From Melioribacter roseus (GTDB lineage Bacteria > Bacteroidota > Ignavibacteria > Ignavibacteriales > Melioribacteraceae): 37,263 nucleotides of DNA. The notes under the pieces are model-generated. The model saw only the letters and a list, made by a program, of their open reading frames with translations, searched no databases and was not told the origin of the DNA. Position numbers and translations under genes: made by a program. The stretch covers positions 1 through 37,263 of the forward strand of contig DYSW01000013.1 in NCBI GenBank assembly GCA_020726285.1, given 5' to 3'. Position 1 is the stretch's first letter, and each line of letters starts with the position of its first letter. Below, one piece after another: positions 3,432 through 26,574 of this stretch.

Positions 3432-4071
3432 TTTTTAGAGTTGTTAGAAAATTCCGCATTAATAATATTTTTCCATTTGATGATATTTTAATTGGATTTT
3501 GAATTGCCAAATTGCTCGTTCCATCTTTTTCACCAAATGGAAGAGCTTGATTTTTTAGTTCGTATTTCAAACCGATTGTGGAAATTTTGGTGAATTCATC
3601 CAAGCCGTATAGAGAAATTGTTTCTCCAATTTGCGTTTTAATTGAGATTTCGCCGAACAGCACATTAACAATTGTTTTTTGATGAACAAGATAAAGTTGA
3701 ATTTTTTCATAATATTTTAGCAAATTGCCAATGTTTCCGAAAGTGTGGTCTAATCTATCGCCCGAACCGCCAAAAATAATTGCTTTACTAACTTTTTTAG
3801 AAATTAGATATTTAATCGCTTTTTCAATATCTGTATCATTTTGGCGTTTTAGTTGCTCTGTTTTAATTCCCATTTTTTGGTAATATTCTAAATTTTCGTT
3901 GGAAATTGAATCAAAATCACCAATTATTAGATTTGGTAGAATTCCAATTTTTCTTGTGGAATTTGCACCGCCATCTGCCGCAATTAGAAAATCAAACCCT
4001 AAAGAAAGTAATTTGTTTATTTCACTTTTTCTTGGCAAATATCCATTCCCAACAATTATCGCATTTTTCAC
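3415..4071 (-). CDS. thiN: Thiamine pyrophosphokinase (thiamine diphosphokinase)
   Basis: Transfers pyrophosphate from ATP to thiamine to make thiamine diphosphate in the cytoplasm. Diagnostic motifs in order: ADGGAN (about 32-37), GDFDS (51-55), QNDTD (77-81) and GGSGDRLDH (101-109), which together form the ATP/Mg2+ and thiamine site of the TPK catalytic domain; a beta-rich thiamine-binding C-terminal part follows. At 218 residues it matches bacterial TPKs. The start codon is GTG, overlapping the stop of the upstream TonB receptor gene as GTGA, a classic coupled arrangement. It makes the effector (TPP) that the operon's riboswitch senses, so the pathway closes a feedback loop. The symbol follows the B. 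subtilis name; tnr3/TPK naming is also used in this group. Confidence 0.93.
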   Translation of the reverse strand: MKNAIIVGNGYLPRKSEINKLLSLGFDFLIAADGGANSTRKIGILPNLIIGDFDSISNENLEYYQKMGIKTEQLKRQNDTDIEKAIKYLISKKVSKAIIFGGSGDRLDHTFGNIGNLLKYYEKIQLYLVHQKTIVNVLFGEISIKTQIGETISLYGLDEFTKISTIGLKYELKNQALPFGEKDGTSNLAIQNPIKISSNGKILLMRNFLTTLKSGYFA

Positions 4072-6533
4072 AAACTCACCGAGATTCCAGCTAAAATATT
4101 TAATTCGGCAGCGGGAAAAAATTCCTTTCCAACAGCATAATGTGCGTAAAGATTATTGAAAATATTGTTTACTTGAACGAAAATTTTTCCATTTTTAATA
4201 ATTTCTTTCCCTTCATATTTGTATCCCAATTTCGCATTAGCGACAAAATACGAATCAACTTTATTGTCGTTGTAACCCACAAAAAATGGATATTTCGAAA
4301 TATAACTTGTTAGATTTTCATCAAAATTGTCAGAATAATAACTTCCAACATATTTTAAAATAAGTGTGGACGAAAATCTGTTTTTTGAAGCAGAAATTAC
4401 GATATTTCCTAACATTTCAGGGAAACCACCAATTTTGTTATTTGCAAGATTAATTGAATTTTCTTCATCAATTACGTGAATTCCTTCTTTAATATAATTC
4501 TTGCTCAATGTTAAATTTGATAAAATATTTAACCAATTTGTGGGTTCAAAAGTGGTTGATAATTCAATTCCACTGTGAATTGTTTTGGGCATATTGCCAG
4601 TAATTGCATCTCCAAAAATTCCAACTTGACCATTTTTTACAATTTCATTTTCAAACAACATATAGTAAAAATTTGCTGAAACAAATAGATTTTCGTTACG
4701 ATAATTCCAACCAAGCTCAAGATTTCTCATCATTTCTGGTTTTACAAGTGGTTCACTAAAATCGTAATTTCCGTTGGAATCTTGAAGGAAATTCGGTAAC
4801 TGTCCGTAATATGAGCCTTCAGCATCATAATAATTTTTTAACATTGGTTCGCGACTTATTTGCGACATACTCAAAAATAGATTCATTTTTTCAAGAATTT
4901 TATAATTCAATCCCATTCTTGGATTGAAAAATGTGTTGCCAACAGAAAAATTATTTGAAAGAAATTTTTCGTTCGAAATTGAATATTTGTGATTAGCAAC
5001 TTGTAATTCTAAAAAATAATTTAAAGTGGAATTGAATTGATAATTTTCATTTACAAATAGATTAAAAACTGTTTTTCCACCTTCGTAATAATAGAATTTC
5101 CTTTCTGGAGAAAGATTTTCGGGCAAACTATTTGCATATTTTACAATCCCAAAATGTTCGGAATTGTGCAAATGAATTTCTGAGCCGAAAGTAAATTCCC
5201 CGTTTTCATGTTGAATTTGTAATCTCGGAATCCAACCAAATTGATTATTGTTTACGGTTGCTCGTATAATTGTATTCGTAGGATTTTGTGTAGGAGAAAA
5301 TCCAAAATCACTTGTTAAACGAAGTGCGTTTGTATCAGCCCAACTTCCATCAAAATCGAAATATCCATTGCCAATTATCCAAAAAACAGCTGAATTAGCA
5401 AGAATATCTTCAGATATTTTAATTTCATTTAACAATTCGAAATGTGGTTGCGAGTAATATTCCTTTTCTTCGCTTCGTCTTTTTGTTGACCAATCTTGAT
5501 ATCGATTATTTTCATAATCGTAATCCCAATAACTATAATTCTCTTTTCGAAGATTTTTCTCAGAAATTACGTTTTTTGGTAAACCAAGATAGACCAAACC
5601 ATCGTTTATTGGTCCGCCATAAAAGTTGAAATTAGTTGTAATATTTTCGTCATATCGAGCTATTGTGAAATGAAAAGATTGATAATCAGCCCAAGCTAAA
5701 TCTCGATAACCAGATTTCAGTGTCCTACCAAATTTGGCATAAATTGAATATTTATTATCAATCAAACCGCTTGTAGCTGAAATCTGAAACTGACGAATAT
5801 TAAAACTCCCAAAATTTGATGATAATTTAATTTCCTTTTTGTTTGAAAATGGCGAAGTAATTAAATTTATTGAGCCTCCAATTGAAGGAAAACCAATCAA
5901 GCTATTACCAGCACCGAGTTGTACTTGAATTAAATCTGTACTGGAAAGTAAATCGGGAATATCAATCCAATAAACATTGTGATCTTCCGGGTCGTTTTGT
6001 GGAATTCCATTCACCGAAATTGAAATTCTGCGTTGTTCAAATCCACGAATATTAAGAAAGGAATAACCGAGTGAACCACCATCATCTGAATAAAATGTGG
6101 TTGAAGGAAGATTGCTGAGAATTTCGGGAATTGATTGGTTTGAGAAATTCTCTTCAATATAATTACTTTTCAATTCTGAAAAACCTGCGGATTTTTCATC
6201 ATTCTTGCCCTCAAAACCTTGGATTACAATTGATTGTGTAGAAAGAATTTTCGGTTTTAAAGCAATCAAAATGCTTTTGCTTAAAAGTCTGACATAAACT
6301 TTTTCGGTAGAAAATCCAATGTAAGAAACAAAAATGAAATCATTCATTTTAAGATTTGAAAGAAGAAATTCACCGTTTTTATCAGTAACAGTTCCAAAAG
6401 ATGAATTTTCTGCTTGAACATTGGCTCCAACAAGAATTTCTCCATTTTCTGAATTGACGACTTTCCCTCTCAAAGTTAAATCTTGAGCAAAAATAGCCGT
6501 GCATAAAATTAGAATTACGAACAATTTTTTCAT
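4068..6533 (-). CDS. TonB-dependent outer-membrane receptor, probable thiamine (vitamin B1) uptake
   Basis: An 821-residue outer-membrane active-transport receptor. Order of parts: signal peptide MKKLFVILILCTAIFAQ (1-17); carboxypeptidase-regulatory-like beta domain (about 20-100, motif GKVVNSENGEILVGANV); TonB plug (about 115-225, including LNIRGFEQRR and GFPSIGGSINLIT); then a 22-strand-type barrel ending in the aromatic-rich C-terminus LAGISVSL. I place the start at 6533 because GGAG lies 6 nt upstream; the TTG 12 nt further upstream overlaps that ribosome binding site. A TPP riboswitch and an intrinsic terminator stand directly in front of it, and a thiamine kinase follows with overlapping stop/start. 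Ligand assignment to thiamine or its phosphates rests on this context, as for the riboswitch-linked omr1-type receptors known in Bacteroidota. It is a clear paralogue of the receptor at 11370-14087. Confidence 0.92.
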   Translation of the reverse strand: MKKLFVILILCTAIFAQDLTLRGKVVNSENGEILVGANVQAENSSFGTVTDKNGEFLLSNLKMNDFIFVSYIGFSTEKVYVRLLSKSILIALKPKILSTQSIVIQGFEGKNDEKSAGFSELKSNYIEENFSNQSIPEILSNLPSTTFYSDDGGSLGYSFLNIRGFEQRRISISVNGIPQNDPEDHNVYWIDIPDLLSSTDLIQVQLGAGNSLIGFPSIGGSINLITSPFSNKKEIKLSSNFGSFNIRQFQISATSGLIDNKYSIYAKFGRTLKSGYRDLAWADYQSFHFTIARYDENITTNFNFYGGPINDGLVYLGLPKNVISEKNLRKENYSYWDYDYENNRYQDWSTKRRSEEKEYYSQPHFELLNEIKISEDILANSAVFWIIGNGYFDFDGSWADTNALRLTSDFGFSPTQNPTNTIIRATVNNNQFGWIPRLQIQHENGEFTFGSEIHLHNSEHFGIVKYANSLPENLSPERKFYYYEGGKTVFNLFVNENYQFNSTLNYFLELQVANHKYSISNEKFLSNNFSVGNTFFNPRMGLNYKILEKMNLFLSMSQISREPMLKNYYDAEGSYYGQLPNFLQDSNGNYDFSEPLVKPEMMRNLELGWNYRNENLFVSANFYYMLFENEIVKNGQVGIFGDAITGNMPKTIHSGIELSTTFEPTNWLNILSNLTLSKNYIKEGIHVIDEENSINLANNKIGGFPEMLGNIVISASKNRFSSTLILKYVGSYYSDNFDENLTSYISKYPFFVGYNDNKVDSYFVANAKLGYKYEGKEIIKNGKIFVQVNNIFNNLYAHYAVGKEFFPAAELNILAGISVSL

Positions 6534-6564
6534 TAAAAACTCCAAAAAAAAAAAAGATTTAAAA

Positions 6565-6587: not shown

Positions 6588-6595
6588 AAAAGTTG

Positions 6596-6690
6596 GTAAT
6601 ACTATTGTTTTCCTACGCCAGCATTACCCGGTTCAGGTTCAAGGGTATAATCTCAGTCCCAAATGGAACACCCCTAACGGCTTCAGTAAA
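6596..6690 (-). promoter_or_regulatory. TPP riboswitch (THI element)
   Basis: The minus strand carries the conserved THI-box parts in the right order: AGGGGTG, then CTGAGATTATACCC, then TTGAACCTGAACCGGGTAAT, then GCTGGCGTAGGAA. These make the P2/P3 pyrimidine-binding arm with CTGAGA and the P4/P5 pyrophosphate-binding arm. The aptamer precedes an intrinsic terminator and the TonB receptor, thiamine kinase and SSS symporter genes, so high TPP should stop transcription of thiamine uptake and activation. The outer P1 helix looks weak by eye, and its 5' strand is shared with a possible antiterminator. Confidence 0.95.
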
Positions 6691-6800: not shown

Positions 6801-7312
6801 ATGACTATCCAAAATTCCAGAATATTGATTATTGATGACGATGAAAATCTGTGTTATTTATTAAAAGAAGAATTAATTGACAAAGGTTTTTCGTTGATTT
6901 TGTTCACAATGGATTTGATGGGCTAAAAGCTATAGAGGAAATTCCCAAAGTAATTAATCTTAAGCAAGAAATTGAATTTTTGGCTGAAAAATTTAACGCA
7001 AAATCTTTTCACTTTTCGGTAGATATTCCAGAAATCTTTACAATTTTGATTAAAATATCAGATTTTAGACGAATTTTCGAGAATTTGATTCACAACTCAA
7101 TTGATGCAATTCAAGAAAACGGAAGAATTACAATCTTTGCGAAGGAAAATCTTAATTTAGATAAAATTGATATTCTTGTAATTCTGTGTTCAGGATTTTC
7201 GGATTTACAACTTTCAGATGGATTTTTGCCAGATTTAATAATTAAAAAACCTTATAATTTTGATTATCTAAATCATCAAATTCTGGAATTATTTCATAAT
7301 AAATTCAATTAG
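6801..7312 (+). pseudogene. Decayed hybrid receiver/histidine-kinase gene
   Basis: Two frames together read as pieces of a signalling protein. The ATG at 6801 begins a receiver domain (RILIIDDDENLCYLLKEEL) whose frame stops at 6924-6926. One frame over, the text continues as a normal receiver (VHNGFDGLKAIEE, from 6902), so a single base has been lost near 6893. That second frame then jumps, without the phospho-acceptor region, into a histidine-kinase ATPase N-box-like stretch (RRIFENLIHNSIDAIQENG, about 7069-7125), and then into something like a receiver C-terminus (LVILCSGF, IIKKPYNFDYLNHQI), ending at 7312. The G boxes of the kinase, the dimerisation His and the receiver Asp are all absent. 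I read it as a relic with one frameshift and at least two internal deletions. The second frame alone, from a TTG at 6980, could be called a 110-residue hypothetical protein. Confidence 0.75.
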
Positions 7313-18638: not shown

Positions 18639-18661
18639 TTGCCCTGCAACCAACAGGGCAA
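18629..18661 (-). terminator. Intrinsic terminator downstream of the decayed two-component pair
   Basis: A perfect 8-bp stem TTGCCCTG / CAGGGCAA with a 7-nt loop, followed on the minus strand by TTTTATTTTT. It would end minus-strand transcripts from the two-component region before the hemB promoter. Confidence 0.8.
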
Positions 18662-18847: not shown

Positions 18848-19304
18848 TTAATTTAAACTATCAAAAAACTTTACTTGAACATTGATGATGAATATTTTTT
18901 CCATCGTTTTAAGAGCAATTTTTTTGGGTTCGTTACTTTCAGAATTGATATTTGAAAAAATTGCTTCAAATTTCTCTATGTAGCTTTTATCGATTTCCTC
19001 TTCAACAATTTTGTTAATTGTTTGAATTAATTCCGAGCTTTTAAAAAGCAAATTCACTGAAAGCTGTAATAAAAATGATTTTCAAACCTTCATAATTTAT
19101 TTTTTGAATTTCATCAAAACCAGTTCCACCTTTAATATCTACATCAAGGAATACTAAATCTGGCTTTTTTGTTGTAATTTCTTCAATTCCAGATGAAACA
19201 GAATCAGCTTCTCCAATTATTTCAATTTGTGGGAAATATTCATGTAGAATTAACGAAATATTCTGTCTTGCAAATTCTTCATCATCAATTATTACGACTT
19301 TCAT
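18848..19304 (-). pseudogene. Decayed LytTR-type response regulator
   Basis: Begins as a normal receiver domain from the ATG at 19304: MKVVIIDDEEFARQNISLIL, PDLVFLDVDIKGGTGFDEIQ with the phospho-acceptor Asp, and IIFITAFSEFAF. The frame then stops at 19041, where a receiver should continue into its conserved C-terminal lysine motif. In another frame the next stretch reads KSSELIQTINKIVEEE (receiver alpha5/linker) and EPKKIALKTMEKIFIINV, like the opening of a LytTR DNA-binding domain, which then ends at 18848 without the rest of that domain. So an internal deletion with frame change at about 19041 and loss of the DNA-binding part have both occurred. It could not bind DNA as it stands. It lies 4 nt after the broken sensor gene. 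Confidence 0.8.
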
Positions 19305-19308
19305 TTTT

Positions 19309-19715
19309 TTAGCTCTTTGGTATCTCGAAAATAATTTTTGTGCCTTTTTCAACTTCAGTTTGTATTTCAAACTTAATTTTTTTCTTTGTCAAAAGATAAA
19401 TATTCTCAATTCTTTCATGTGTAATTTTTATCGCATAAGATTTATGATTTTCTTTTATCTCATTTTGAAAACCGGCGCCGTTATCTTCTACCGAAATTAA
19501 TAAATAATCATCTTTTTCATTAATTTCGACAAAAATAACTCCTTTTCCAAAATCCATATTTTTAATTCCGTGTTCAACAGCATTTTCAATAAATGGTTGA
19601 AGTAACATAGAAGGCATTTTTATTTGCTCTGGAATTTACCAATATCTTGTGCAAAACTCGCCGTAAAGCATCCAAGAATTAAATAAATTGATATTTTTAA
19701 TATTGTTTTAAACAT
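19309..19715 (-). pseudogene. Decayed LytS-type sensor histidine kinase
   Basis: The ATG at 19715 starts a signal peptide (MFKTILKISIYLILGCFTASFAQDIG) that runs into a stop at 19622-19620. In another frame the text from about 19640 reads IPEQIKMPSMLLQPFIENAVEHGI, the N-box of the LytS/YehU-type kinase ATPase domain, followed by VEDNGAGF (G1 box) and the C-terminus GTKIIFEIP ending at 19309. All sensory, membrane and phospho-acceptor-His regions that should lie between are gone: a single deletion has joined the signal peptide, out of frame, to the ATPase domain. The remaining ATPase frame (from 19617) could be called a 102-residue protein, but it lacks a dimerisation domain. Confidence 0.82.
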
Positions 19716-20450: not shown

Positions 20451-20475
20451 CAGCAAGCCAAAACAAGTTATTTGA

Positions 20476-20493
20476 TATTGTAATTCTACAATA
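20476..20493 (+). terminator. Weak hairpin after trmB
   Basis: TATTGTA, loop ATTC, TACAATA, a 7-bp A/T-rich stem 26 nt after the trmB stop. No T-run follows, so terminator function is doubtful. Confidence 0.3.
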
Positions 20494-20565
20494 ATTAAGT
20501 TACTACTTTACTGATTAGTTCTAAAAACTGATGATGAAAAAATGAACGAATAACTAAAAATAAAT

Positions 20566-20573: not shown

Positions 20574-20586
20574 CTACCTAAATTTT

Positions 20587-20674
20587 CGGAGGTGTGCCGA
20601 CAGTTTGATGCCCAATCCCATCAGGTCCGAAAGGAAGCAGTGGTTAGCAGACATTCTGGGTGGCATTCCCTCCG
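20587..20674 (+). ncRNA. ffs: Signal recognition particle RNA (4.5S, small bacterial type)
   Basis: Contains the conserved SRP apical domain text CAGGTCCGAAAGGAAGCAG (20622-20640): the GGTCCGAAAGG tetraloop region plus AAGCAG of the asymmetric Ffh-binding loop. The ends pair as CGGAGG (20587-20592) with CCTCCG (20669-20674), and a run of seven T follows, so the terminal helix doubles as a terminator. Its length of about 88 nt fits the short bacterial form. The 3' T-run abuts the stop codon of the convergent phosphatase gene. Confidence 0.93.
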
Positions 20675-20679
20675 TTTTT

Positions 20680-21138
20680 TTATGTATAAATCAGAAAATC
20701 TAAATTCCCCGTAAATTTTTGTACACTATTTAAAAAGCTAATCTTTGCAATTGTACCAGGATGAAAATTGATAGCCGAACCAGTATTTGAGACTAAGTTT
20801 GATGCGTGGTAAGAAATATCAGGTTGGTGACCGACAAAAACCAAATTTTCAGCATCCATTGAATTAGCAATCGTGATAATAAAATCGGAAGTTGAACTTG
20901 ATTGTAAATCATTTTCGAGAATGATTGCATTCTTTACATCAAATTTAGTGCGAATTAATTCTGCCGTTTGTTTGGTTCTAATTAATGGTGATGAAAAGAT
21001 GTAATCAATTTGTGGAGCGTGTTTTTCCCAAAACTTTAATGTTTTATTAAATCTTTCAATTCCCTCTTCGCTAAGTTCTCTGTAAAAATCTTTGTATCCT
21101 TTCTCGGCTTTTGCGTGTCTAACTAAATAAATATTCAT
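20680..21138 (-). CDS. sixA: SixA-like histidine phosphatase (phosphohistidine phosphatase family)
   Basis: 152-residue member of the histidine phosphatase superfamily. The RHG-type motif reads LVRHAKAE with phospho-accepting His8; SSPLIRTKQTAE gives the second arginine; the second catalytic histidine is in VFVGHQPDIS (His104). The RHAKAE variant and short size are typical of SixA, which removes phosphate from His in phosphorelay or PTS proteins. The actual target here is unknown. Convergent with the SRP RNA gene and divergent from the NhaC antiporter, with 52 nt between the two starts. Confidence 0.87.
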   Translation of the reverse strand: MNIYLVRHAKAEKGYKDFYRELSEEGIERFNKTLKFWEKHAPQIDYIFSSPLIRTKQTAELIRTKFDVKNAIILENDLQSSSTSDFIITIANSMDAENLVFVGHQPDISYHASNLVSNTGSAINFHPGTIAKISFLNSVQKFTGNLDFLIYT

Positions 21139-23072: not shown

Positions 23073-23538
23073 CTATTTTTCAAAAAAATCATCATCAATA
23101 TTTAGAAATTGACCAATATTGTCATCAATTCTGGGAAGATAATTATCACCAGGATTACCAAATTGGTATCTTCTAACAAAAATATTTGATACATAAGCAA
23201 TTGTGTGTTTCCAAAAATCTTGTGGTTTAAATTTTTCAAAAACTTTATTCATTTTAATTAAATTCATTACTGAAACGGCAAGTAGTATGTTGCGGATTTC
23301 AAAAAAACCAAGATGCATAACTGCTTGAGAAATATTAGTAATTTTTCCAGTTAATCCGAAAAATTGGACTATTTGCAATTCTTAAAACTTTGCTTGCTGA
23401 AACTTGGTCGGTTGAAATAATTTTTGCGATATCGTTTGTAGTGGAATGTCTATTTGCCATTGTATCTACTAACTTTTGGTAAATAACTGGAAGTGTAGGA
23501 AGTTCATTGAGTTTCGCTATAATTAATTCTTTTTTCAT
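23073..23538 (-). pseudogene. Frameshifted HDOD-domain signalling protein
   Basis: The first frame, from an ATG at 23538 (GGAG upstream), reads KLNELPTLPVIYQKLVDTMA and ISTDQVSASKVLRIANSPIF, a standard HDOD opening. It then runs out of frame at a run of five A on the plus strand (23359-23363). Removing one base restores FGLTGKITNISQAVMHLGFFEIRN, the expected continuation, in the frame that ends at 23073. Further on, the segment after KPQDFWKHTIAYV lacks the usual GLLHDIG core and jumps to a short tail, so a deletion is also likely. HDOD proteins are regulatory scaffolds; this copy appears dead. An in-frame ATG at 23583 overlaps the upstream Nudix stop as ATGA. Confidence 0.8.
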
Positions 23539-23579
23539 TTTCTCCAAATTCATAAATTCAATTGTGCAATTGAATGATT

Positions 23580-24242
23580 TCATTTAATATTAATTCTTTC
23601 TACAAACTTCATCAACAAAAAAGCAGTAATTCCCCATATTACACCAAATTGCGTTTCATACAAATATACTGGATAGCCATTTATTTCTCTTGTATTATGG
23701 TATTTTTCGGGCAGATTAAATTTTTTGGCTGGAGAAATTGATTTTTGCTTACCTTCAACTGATTTATTGGGATTTATAGAAATAGAAAAACTAAATTCAT
23801 TTGGTAAATTTTCTTTGAAATACGAAATTGGCATCGAAAATACTTTTGCAACTTCATTTTGCCGAAATTCAAGTTCAGTGATATCTGAAATCTCAAGTTG
23901 TCCAATAAATGCTTCGACCAAAACTCCTGTAACGTTCACAAAACTTCCTAGTTTGCCAAGATATTTGATTTGATTTCTTTTAAGCGACAATTCTTCCATT
24001 GCTTCACGAATTGCAGTTTTTTTGAAAATTTTATCATTTTCATCAAATTCTCCACCAGGGAAACAGACTTCACCTGGTTGCCTAATTCCTTCTGAACGAA
24101 TTTCAAATAAAATGTGCATTTCATCATTTTTGAAAAATATTGGAATTAAAACTGCCGATTTGAAAAAATGATCACAATTCAGAAGATTAGGTTTTGAAGT
24201 AAGAAATATTTCGATATTATTTAAAGTTATTCTCTTTTTCAT
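23580..24242 (-). CDS. Nudix hydrolase, CoA pyrophosphatase-like (NudL/YeaB type)
   Basis: 220 residues. The Nudix box reads GGEFDENDKIFKKTAIREAM followed by EEL (about 69-91); its spacing is one residue longer than the classic pattern, as in coenzyme-A Nudix enzymes. Just ahead is the UPF0035-like SEGIRQPGEVCFPGG stretch and SAVLIPIFF near residue 29. These enzymes cleave CoA or related nucleotides to 4'-phosphopantetheine and 3',5'-ADP. The final Gly of the Nudix box is replaced by Ser (EELSL), so substrate call is probable only. ATG at 24242; the frame ends overlapping the first ATG of the HDOD relic. Confidence 0.85.
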   Translation of the reverse strand: MKKRITLNNIEIFLTSKPNLLNCDHFFKSAVLIPIFFKNDEMHILFEIRSEGIRQPGEVCFPGGEFDENDKIFKKTAIREAMEELSLKRNQIKYLGKLGSFVNVTGVLVEAFIGQLEISDITELEFRQNEVAKVFSMPISYFKENLPNEFSFSISINPNKSVEGKQKSISPAKKFNLPEKYHNTREINGYPVYLYETQFGVIWGITAFLLMKFVERINIK

Positions 24243-24265
24243 TTCATTAAAAGGTGGTTATATAT

Positions 24266-24273
24266 TACATTTG
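24266..24273 (+). promoter_or_regulatory. Putative -7 promoter element of the heme operon
   Basis: TACATTTG matches TAnnTTTG and lies about 73 nt before the first gene of the operon. The candidate -33 (TTTC at 24242-24245, spacing 20) has one mismatch. Confidence 0.42.
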
Positions 24274-24346
24274 AATTGTAAACTTAAATCAAAAAAAAGC
24301 CAATTTCCAAACAAATAAATGAATTTTCAATAAATACTAGTACAAA

Positions 24347-25171
24347 ATGGATAGTTTTATCAATATTTTAAATTTATTCTTGTTGTTGTTCTACATTCTT
24401 TCTTTCACTTCATATTTACTCGATTTTAAGAATGATTTACCTTTTTTCAAGAATAGCAAAAGAATCTTTTTGTTTCTAACCATTTTAATTCATCTCATTT
24501 TTATTGTTTTGTTAACAAATGAATTAAAGCATTTTCCAATTACTAATAAATTTGAGATATTTTCATTAATATCATTTTCGATTGTATTTACATATTTTTT
24601 GATTGAATTGCTGACCGACATAAAAGGAACAGGGTTGTTTTTGCTCGCTTTATCGTTGATTTTGCAAGTTCAATCTGTATTCCTTTTCAAGATGAATCCA
24701 AATGTTTTACCAATCTTGAAATCAATTCCAATGGGACTTCACGTTTCTACAGCAATTTTGAGCTACACAGCTTTTTCAATTTCAGCTATCTATGCAATTT
24801 TATATTTTCTACTTTATAAAAGCATCAAATCCAACAAATTTGGGCTATATTTTAATAAACTTCCAGATTTAGAAATACTCGAAAAATTATCATTCACAGC
24901 AATGTCCATCGGGTTGGTTTTACTTTCAATTGCAATAATTATTGGGATAATTTGGCTGCCCTCCGCATTCCCAAATTTCAGCTATTATGACCCAAAAATT
25001 ATTTCGACTTTCATCGTTTGGATTTTTTATGCGGTTGGAATTTCACGAAAGGAACTTGGATATCTTTATGGTAAAAAGTTGATTAGGTTTGCAATTATTG
25101 GATTATTCTTAATAATTTTGGCAAGTATGGGACCATCATTTTTTACTAACTCATTCCACACTTTTGGTTGA
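24347..25171 (+). CDS. CcsA/HemX-family membrane protein
   Basis: 274 residues with about eight hydrophobic helices; the central part (IPMGLHVSTAILSYTAFSISAIYAILYFLL) matches the cytochrome c assembly (CcsA/CcmC/HemX) family. The tryptophan-rich WWD heme-binding loop of true CcsA/CcmF proteins is not seen. It stands 13 nt ahead of hemA, the same position as B. subtilis hemX, whose product lowers HemA amount. So a HemX-like role in controlling glutamyl-tRNA reductase is more likely than cytochrome c heme ligation. First gene of the heme operon. Confidence 0.82.
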   Translation: MDSFINILNLFLLLFYILSFTSYLLDFKNDLPFFKNSKRIFLFLTILIHLIFIVLLTNELKHFPITNKFEIFSLISFSIVFTYFLIELLTDIKGTGLFLLALSLILQVQSVFLFKMNPNVLPILKSIPMGLHVSTAILSYTAFSISAIYAILYFLLYKSIKSNKFGLYFNKLPDLEILEKLSFTAMSIGLVLLSIAIIIGIIWLPSAFPNFSYYDPKIISTFIVWIFYAVGISRKELGYLYGKKLIRFAIIGLFLIILASMGPSFFTNSFHTFG

Positions 25172-25184
25172 AAGGTATTTTTGA

Positions 25185-26453
25185 ATGGAAATTATCGGAA
25201 TTAGTTTAAGCTATCGAACTTGTTCTATAGAAAAACGTGAATCTCTTTATTTGAACGAATCTGAAAAAGAAGAGTTAATAAAAATTCTTAAAAACGGCTT
25301 CTTGCTTGAAGGAATTGTAATATCAACTTGTAACCGAACAGAAATAATTGGTCTGACAATTAATGATGAAATTACTATAGATATTTTAGTTGACAAAATT
25401 TTAGAATATAAACCTGTTGAAAATCTAAAATCTTCAGATTTTCTAAAATACTTCAATTGCACAGCTCTTAAGCATATTCTTGAAGTGGTTTCCGGAATTG
25501 ATTCACTAATTATTGGCGATAGTCAAATATTAGGTCAAGTAAAAGAATCATTTCTGCTCTCAGAAAAACTTAATTTTCTTGGAACCATTTTCCACAGAAT
25601 TGAGCAAATTTCATTGAAACTTGGAAAAAAAGTAATATCAGAAACCATTTTAGGCGAAGGTGCAGTTTCTATAAGTTACGCAGCAATTAAAGTTATCGAG
25701 AAAATATTTTCACATTTTCAGAATAAACAAGCTCTAATTATTGGTGCTGGCGAAACTGCCGAATTAGCTGCTATGCATTTGAATGAATTGAATTTAGAAA
25801 AGATGTATATTACAAACAGAACTCGAGAAAAAGGCGAAAATTTGGCAAATAAGATTTCGGCAGAATTTATTGAGTTTGAAAATTTTGATTCTATTTTGCA
25901 AGAAATTGATATTCTCATTTCCGCCACAAGCTCGCCAAATTTTCTAATTGATTTTGAACGAATAAAATCCATTGGAAAATTTAGAAGAGGAAAACCACTT
26001 GTTATTATGGATATTGCCATTCCGCGTGATATTGATCCAAAAGTGGCAAATTTAGATTGGATTTTTTACCACGATGTCGATTCGCTACAAAAATTTATCG
26101 ACCAAAATATCGAAAAGCGAAAAGCCGAGATTCCAAAAATTAAATCATTTATTCAAGATGAAATGGTTACATTTTTCTCGTGGTATAATACTTTACAAAT
26201 AATTCCAACGCTTAAAAATTTCCGTGATTTTTTTGAAGAAATTCGTTCCGATGAATTTGAAAAAATCAAAAACAAATTGTTGCCCGAAGAAATCGAGAAA
26301 GTGGAAAATATGACAAAACGATTAGTCGGAAGAATTTTGCATAACCCAACAATCAATCTAAAAAAACTATCAGAAGATAGTTCGAACTATGAAAAATCAT
26401 CAGAATATTCTAAAATGCTAATGGAACTTTATAATCTTTCAAAGAAAAGTTAA
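25185..26453 (+). CDS. hemA: Glutamyl-tRNA reductase
   Basis: NADPH-dependent reduction of glutamyl-tRNA(Glu) to glutamate-1-semialdehyde, the first committed step of the C5 heme route. Catalytic Cys49 is in VISTCNRTEI; the substrate-binding GIDSLIIGDSQILGQVKE follows; the NADPH site is IIGAGETAELAAMHL (about 186-200); a C-terminal helical dimerisation domain ends the protein. 422 residues, normal length. The product goes to HemL (14867-16159). The 121-nt gap to hemC is the only real break in the operon. Confidence 0.96.
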   Translation: MEIIGISLSYRTCSIEKRESLYLNESEKEELIKILKNGFLLEGIVISTCNRTEIIGLTINDEITIDILVDKILEYKPVENLKSSDFLKYFNCTALKHILEVVSGIDSLIIGDSQILGQVKESFLLSEKLNFLGTIFHRIEQISLKLGKKVISETILGEGAVSISYAAIKVIEKIFSHFQNKQALIIGAGETAELAAMHLNELNLEKMYITNRTREKGENLANKISAEFIEFENFDSILQEIDILISATSSPNFLIDFERIKSIGKFRRGKPLVIMDIAIPRDIDPKVANLDWIFYHDVDSLQKFIDQNIEKRKAEIPKIKSFIQDEMVTFFSWYNTLQIIPTLKNFRDFFEEIRSDEFEKIKNKLLPEEIEKVENMTKRLVGRILHNPTINLKKLSEDSSNYEKSSEYSKMLMELYNLSKKS

Positions 26454-26574
26454 AATGATATTTGAAGTCCATTTTTTAGAATTGCTTCTTTTGCAAAAGG
26501 AGAATTATTGAAATCTTTAGTTGTAAACGGATGTGTTTCAATCCGATTTTCTATCTTGAGAATAATAGGTAAAA

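Follow-up and report, generated by a model that had tools for sequence, protein, structure and literature searches.

Decay of a sensor kinase–LytTR regulator pair and genome-wide depletion of two-component genes in a Melioribacter genome

Does a stretch of DNA that carries pieces of a sensor kinase beside pieces of a LytTR response regulator still encode a working signaling system, and, if it does not, is the decay confined to this locus or part of a wider pattern in the genome? The question arises from a window of 37,263 nucleotides (the whole stretch of DNA that was analyzed), which is contig 87 (DYSW01000013.1) of a 2.06-Mb assembly of Melioribacter roseus in 140 contigs (GCA_020726285.1, hereafter G000; completeness 100, contamination 1.73%). 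Decay was called by reference to G001, the nearest genome, which belongs to the same genus and has ~92% DNA identity to G000 and a completeness of 100, and the syntenic G001 stretch (L009) was aligned to the window by blastn. At a completeness of 100, G000 is smaller than its same-genus relatives (2.06 Mb vs 2.4 Mb for G001 and 3.1 Mb for G003, the latter 96% complete); the less complete genomes of the genus have 2.0 Mb (G002, completeness 77) and 2.4 Mb (G004, completeness 85). We consider the locus to hold, very probably, only the functionless remains of a LytTR regulator and a sensor kinase of the TPR type, and to be one of many losses in a process of gene loss that is biased toward signaling.

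What remains of the sensor and the regulator

An earlier note on this DNA, made from its letters, described both genes of a sensor–regulator pair as decayed side by side. Alignment with the relative bears this out, for in G001 the pair stands whole between the same neighbors. The G001 sensor is an open frame of 638 aa (L009:10415-12331, minus strand) in which Pfam finds TPR families, a His_kinase domain (PF06580) at residues 441-520 and HATPase_c. The regulator is an open frame of 249 aa (L009:9662-10411, minus strand) with Response_reg at residues 3-111 and LytTR at 151-241. Gene order at the locus is identical in the two genomes: a gene that we take by eye from its protein sequence to be hemB-like, the regulator, the sensor, and a gene that we take on the same grounds to be trmB-like. 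Identity between the window and L009 is ~90-93% around the locus, and the blastn alignment is interrupted at three sites, where deletions have left the following features in the window.

18639-18661, minus strand: hairpin resembling a terminator, downstream of both genes; one was detected here, vs a mean of 0.4 in shuffled sequences
18848-18873, minus strand: C-terminal residues and stop codon of the regulator; the ORF 18848-19057 ends KFFDSLN, as does the G001 regulator
18873-18874, minus strand: junction of a 249-bp (83-codon) deletion after regulator residue 158, by which nearly all of LytTR is removed
18874-19046, minus strand: regulator remnant, residues 102-158, with the receiver end, the linker and the first LytTR strand; 91% identity, out of frame with the receiver piece
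19045-19046, minus strand: junction of a frame-shifting 44-bp deletion in the regulator, missing after residue 87; blastn break at 19044-19047
19044-19304, minus strand: regulator remnant, receiver residues 1-87; 89-90% identity to the G001 regulator, phospho-acceptor Asp kept
19309-19635, minus strand: sensor remnant, residues 531-638, HATPase_c; 94% identity, dN/dS 0.10, no internal stops, stop codon at 19309-19311
19636-19640, minus strand: sensor deletion junction, with blastn breakpoints at 19636 and 19640; 1,513 bp of the G001 gene are missing and 3 bp (TAC) stand instead
19626-19715, minus strand: sensor remnant, residues 1-30, a signal peptide by eye; 73% identity to the G001 sensor, the short frame stopping at 19620

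The net loss from the sensor is about 1,510 bp, and residues 31-530 are missing. Gone with them are the TPR region, a membrane segment (recognized by eye) and the His_kinase domain with its phospho-acceptor His; the HFIFNSLN stretch of the G001 sensor, which we take by eye to be the kinase histidine box, lies inside the deleted part. The two surviving ends (residues 1-30 and 531-638) sit in different frames, in agreement with the earlier description of a sensor reduced to signal peptide and ATPase and joined out of frame, and the second of them still matches HATPase_c in Pfam at 33.8 bits, above the cut-off. The name LytS that had been given to this sensor does not hold: the intact G001 sensor carries TPR families, and the 5TM-LYT family has no match in it (Pfam, E 0.001). 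In its domains, and as two adjacent genes on one strand, the intact G001 pair is like the systems formed by LytTR regulators and PF06580 (LytS-type) kinases. It differs from LytS in its input, which is TPR rather than 5TM-LYT, and the window copy differs further in being broken in both genes. TPR input parts are common in Bacteroidota.

The regulator had been said to keep its receiver. Residues 1-87 and the Asp do remain, but the domain is cut short at residue 87 of ~111, and Response_reg matches the remnant over positions 1-81 of 111 only (50.9 bits, Pfam), which makes the receiver incomplete. The deleted 44 bp include the codon for Lys in ILKPF of the G001 regulator, presumably the conserved receiver Lys, and this same deletion, with its junction at 19045/19046, accounts for the loss of frame that had been noticed. 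The length of the other deletion, 249 bp, is divisible by three. The view that LytTR is reduced to its first strand needs only the amendment that the last residues of the regulator are retained as well. The earlier placing of the deletion points to within a few bases is matched by the blastn breaks (18873/18874, 19044-19047 and 19636-19640), and the preserved gene order and downstream terminator by synteny with G001 and the hairpin at 18661-18639.

Taken together, the three deletions would have removed the parts for sensing, for autophosphorylation, for proper receipt of the phosphate and for DNA binding. Because the sensing, His, receiver-end and DNA-binding parts are missing, no signal would be expected to pass from this sensor to this regulator. 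A profile search for LytTR (PF04397) returned 0 matches across the G000 genome, so that its LytTR output branch seems to have been lost altogether; the same family has one match in G001, two in G003, one in G004 and none in G002, which is 77% complete. G003 contains an intact LytTR pair in other gene surroundings, with a related sensor that is 38% identical over residues 24-621. Another genome, G007, was set aside as a reference for polarity, its pair having a different, shorter kinase.

Elsewhere in the window lie a second broken pair and a broken HDOD gene.

6801-6943, plus strand: remnant of a second regulator, which in G001 has 459 aa and is of the sigma-54 activator type; nothing beyond residues 1-48 is left, and these are divided between two frames
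6926-7312, plus strand: remnant of its partner, in G001 a 328-aa protein that combines HATPase and receiver domains; 444 bp are deleted internally at 7159-7174
23073-23583, minus strand: HDOD gene, coding for 285 aa in G001 and broken here by the loss of 324 bp at 23195/23196 and a frame change near 23350

From the second pair (6801-7312), 1,406 and 444 bp are missing relative to G001. Its two junctions share 5 and 9 bases between their arms (at least 5 are shared in 2% of random pairs and at least 8 in 0.06%), and the three junctions of the LytTR pair share 2-3 bases (at least 3 occur in 25% of random pairs). We claim no common mechanism for the deletions. An unsystematic look at the junctions of this window revealed no insertion sequences.

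Two-component genes across the genome

The decay of the pair had been treated as a local event, a view that is overturned by profile searches and gene-by-gene comparison, which reveal depletion and breakage of two-component genes throughout the genome. Receivers number 15 in G000 vs 36 in G001, and HATPase_c matches 20 vs 38, broken copies being included in these counts. Among the other genomes of the genus, G003 (96% complete) has 41 receivers, the one at 77% completeness has 22, and the one at 85% has 25. Sigma-54 activator matches, a count that includes other AAA proteins, stand at 10 in G000 vs 14 in G001. The control families are represented by 30 vs 29 matches (ABC_tran), 7 vs 7 (Sigma70_r2) and 44 vs 48 (Por_Secre_tail), and HDOD barely differs, with three full-length copies (one with a stop) and two fragments of the window gene in G000 and four copies in G001. 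Chemotaxis may be decaying in G000 too. MCP has four matches in G001 over 157-170 of 172 positions, vs one over 153 positions in G000 together with three partial matches of 63, 97 and 67 positions, of which that of 67 does not reach the cut-off. The CheW gene, uninterrupted in G001, is divided between two frames in G000 (G000:C85:30192-30604), and for a CheA-like G001 gene (C33:60485-62350) that combines HATPase and CheW domains, the G000 stretches compared yield no piece.

To test this gene by gene, the window, two large contigs of G000 and a portion of another were each compared with their G001 counterpart; the contigs were chosen for synteny by family matches, and the window's contig because of the finding itself. 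The 351 G001 ORFs yielded 312 that were scored, with 39 omitted (38 in blocks at stretch ends that have no counterpart, and 1 antisense). A gene was called lost when absent from its place in the G000 stretches compared, and such a gene could lie elsewhere in G000. Two-component genes were broken or lost in 8 of 12 cases (6 broken, 2 lost) and other genes in 18 of 300 (11 broken, 7 lost; Fisher p 3e-7); the corresponding figures are 4/8 vs 17/273 when the window's contig is excluded (p 0.0013) and 7/11 vs 13/164 for genes of at least 300 aa with early stops counted (p 2e-5), all of these Fisher values being too small since operon genes are not independent. The comparison is conservative in that the group of other genes includes an MCP and an HDOD gene and that some of its lost genes may sit elsewhere.

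Two places on one G001 contig deserve separate mention. A LysR gene and its neighbor (C13:66956-68881), scored as lost, are situated at a synteny break and may well be elsewhere in G000. At G001:C13:21477-22978 (L068:1477-2978), G000 has a broken M48 peptidase gene and lacks, in that place, a PRAI-type (trpF-like) gene; the loss of a tryptophan step in G000 is possible.

A wider tally compared 62 receiver- and kinase-type genes of G001 with 604,809 bases of G000. In G000, 13 of them are intact, 15 are decayed, 1 carries a stop and 33 have no piece of at least 72% identity, two weak matches (65% and 68% identity) being scored as no piece. The single gene with a stop is an HDOD protein whose receiver match falls below the cut-off. 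The kinase-type genes derive from the 38 HATPase_c matches of G001, of which 36 were listed and 34 used after two gyrase-/MutL-like ones had been excluded. Most of the G000 stretches were picked for their receiver or HATPase matches, and genes lost together with their surroundings are unscored for remnants. The G000 receiver matches, 15 in number, all fall within the stretches, as do 16 of 18 listed HATPase_c matches (20 in total, the two unlisted ones being weak), and this makes an intact copy elsewhere unlikely; the two listed matches outside the stretches are, as we judge from their length, gyrase- and MutL-like. Both flanks were placed for 12 of the 15 decayed genes and one flank for the other 3, and these genes are spread over 11 G001 contigs. 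Three of the 33 genes without a piece have both flanks placed and are thus absent from their place, while the flanks of the remaining 30 are unplaced on the stretches compared. Controlled for flanks in this manner, the comparison gives 16 broken or lost genes out of 26 for the two-component group vs 22 out of 361 for the others (36 and 166 genes, respectively, were set aside because their flanks were unplaced).

The traffic has not been entirely in one direction. By a hand count over 344 kb of alignment, there are 26 places where G000 falls short of G001 by over 20 bp (~30 kb) and 8 where the converse holds (~12 kb), these length differences being unpolarized and exclusive of a 12,153-bp gap on C13 whose genes are on another G000 contig. 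The reverse test, with 377 G000 ORFs, uncovered two genes (345 and 174 aa) that are interrupted in G001 by an internal stop, besides a few that match partly; judged by coordinates, no receiver or HATPase gene of the G000 sample is a fragment in G001. An 8.7-kb block that holds a receiver and a HATPase gene (G000:C65:51132-59858, L041) has no counterpart in the G001 stretches compared, and this G000-only block and the two G001 stops together indicate that loss is not all one way. The lineage of G000 is, very probably, shedding two-component genes throughout its genome, along with some, at the least, of its chemotaxis genes, much faster than other genes, and a sister genome at ~92% DNA identity still keeps those genes.

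Selection on the remnants and the weighing of explanations

The earlier note regarded the erosion as fairly recent, and we grade this as probable. The remnants of the pair have a pooled dN/dS of 0.22 relative to G001 (bootstrap 95% 0.13-0.37), vs a median of 0.12 for intact genes (5th-95th percentile 0.06-0.27; n=274, at least 100 aa). The value is 0.17 when the signal peptide is left out (bootstrap 95% 0.09-0.30), and singly it is 0.10 for the ATPase remnant and 0.38 for the receiver remnant. Four intact two-component genes in the sample range from 0.08 to 0.19. The pooled remnants of seven broken signaling genes (the LytTR pair, the second pair, the HDOD gene and two other kinases) reach 0.29, slightly over the intact 95th percentile of 0.27, with single values of 0.16-0.36. 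The dN/dS of the remnants fits recent decay plus some neutral drift. We dropped relaxed selection as a clock: the neutral share on the G000 branch was 0.10 with limits of -0.08 and 0.41, an interval too wide for that use.

The ATPase remnant, at 0.10, gives no indication of relaxed selection, which is compatible with recency but also with retained function. In the latter case the remnants would persist as small proteins, one an ATP-binding domain standing alone (ORF 19309-19617, beginning with ATG) and the other a truncated receiver; the open frame of 108 codons, the low dN/dS and the preserved Asp of the receiver are all in keeping with this. We nonetheless regard it as highly improbable: the truncated receiver is without its end and the kinase remnant without its histidine domain, different pieces survive in other broken genes, and a low dN/dS is equally expected from young decay. 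An artifact of assembly or binning, whereby the cell has a complete pair from which the assembler omitted pieces, deserves equally little credence. The assembly is a draft in 140 contigs; yet under a strict rule 276 of the 300 other genes are intact (against 11 broken and 7 absent), 6 more have a single stop that falls within 8% of the start or 4% of the end of the alignment, and breaks recur in 15 two-component genes matched to 11 G001 contigs. Nor would the 2-3 bp shared at the junctions of the locus suffice to deceive an assembler; in the second pair, however, 9 bp are shared at one junction.

A broader alternative is general turnover of accessory genes, two-component genes being merely among the dispensable genes of the genus. 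Also broken or missing are a GH18 protein with a sorting tail, an AMP-ligase, the LysR gene with its neighbor and a GmrSD restriction gene, as such turnover would predict. Families that vary across the genus nevertheless hold their numbers between G000 and G001 (the Por_Secre_tail, ABC and sigma counts given above), and the flank-controlled comparison still sets 16/26 two-component genes against 22/361 others, the others being unmatched for conservation. We hold general turnover to be unlikely, though it is the most credible of these alternatives. Hardly any weight attaches to the converse polarity, in which G000 is ancestral and the genes were gained by G001. Genes present only in G001 and without a G000 remnant are not polarizable by sequence alone, but fragments in place cannot precede full genes, by which a gain is refuted for every gene with a remnant; the more distant G003, of the same genus, has 41 receivers and an intact LytTR pair.

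We therefore retain the reading of the locus as a dead pair within a signaling-biased loss. As for its cause, we propose that a steadier niche may have deprived sensing of its use or made it a burden; selection is here indistinguishable from drift. A more general and decidedly tentative idea, which we think rather doubtful at present, is that a bacterium with no known host may shed phospho-sensing early in genome reduction, before sigma factors, transport and biosynthesis, and that this shedding could be favored in a constant niche. If true, the half-decayed loci, together with a sister genome in which the set is still full, would make the order, rate and selective value of signaling loss measurable in nature.

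Known cases and neighboring features of the window

Each element of this picture is of a kind already known, and the single locus taken alone is ordinary. Leptospira borgpetersenii is reported to have lost signal transduction genes alongside many pseudogenes, a loss proposed to follow a narrowed habitat (PMC2229662). G000 is like it in combining signaling loss with pseudogenes; the Leptospira case, as reported, involves insertion sequences and a mammalian host, whereas G000 shows internal deletions, has no known host and has a close relative that retains the genes. Pelagic Methylophilaceae are described in part of another report as having two-component systems and chemotaxis strongly reduced with genome size (PMC6794327). 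There, as far as that part goes, sigma factors drop and streamlined genomes are credited with few pseudogenes, in contrast to G000 with its sigma count of 7 vs 7 and its many remnants. G000 is unlike a genome that has finished streamlining in that 15 two-component genes persist as fragments and Sigma70_r2 stays at 7 vs 7. By this analogy, sigma factors being held and remnants being many, G000 is perhaps at an earlier stage than the streamlined Methylophilaceae. Fewer transcriptional regulators are reported for host-dependent bacteria in sections of a further study (PMC2688493). In yeast evolved in a constant environment, signaling networks are reported to have been the main target of loss, by an adaptive route (PMC3836717); both yeast and G000 lose signaling genes, the one a laboratory eukaryote on that account and the other a natural bacterium with deletions.

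Titles and abstract beginnings among the literature matches listed, a scope outside which preprints and subscription journals fall, held no published report of this decay. In the parts of the Melioribacter roseus genome paper that were covered (PMC3534657), the sole passage with the term 'two-component' stands in the reference list. The value of G000 lies in a loss caught half-way, with fragments at many loci and a relative at ~92% identity that retains the genes. With such a genome one can study the order in which sensors disappear, whether a kinase and its regulator are lost jointly, and whether selection or drift is at work.

Several other features of the window were observed along the way. 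A TPP riboswitch at 6593-6685 (minus strand), upstream of a gene at 4068-6545 that by eye is TonB-dependent receptor-like, adjoins the second decayed pair; riboswitch and gene together suggest thiamine uptake. A gene for the bacterial small SRP RNA is located at 20584-20680 (plus strand), directly downstream of the trmB-like gene. Just before it, 97 bp at 20451-20547, flanked by GAATAA direct repeats, are present in the window and absent from G001, which is perhaps a deletion in G001. The block at 23196-26438 is only ~85% identical to G001, vs ~91-93% in its flanks, and could reflect recombination or faster change in one genome. Immediately beyond it, at 26439-26568, the window has ~120 bp more than G001 between two genes that by eye resemble genes of haem synthesis.
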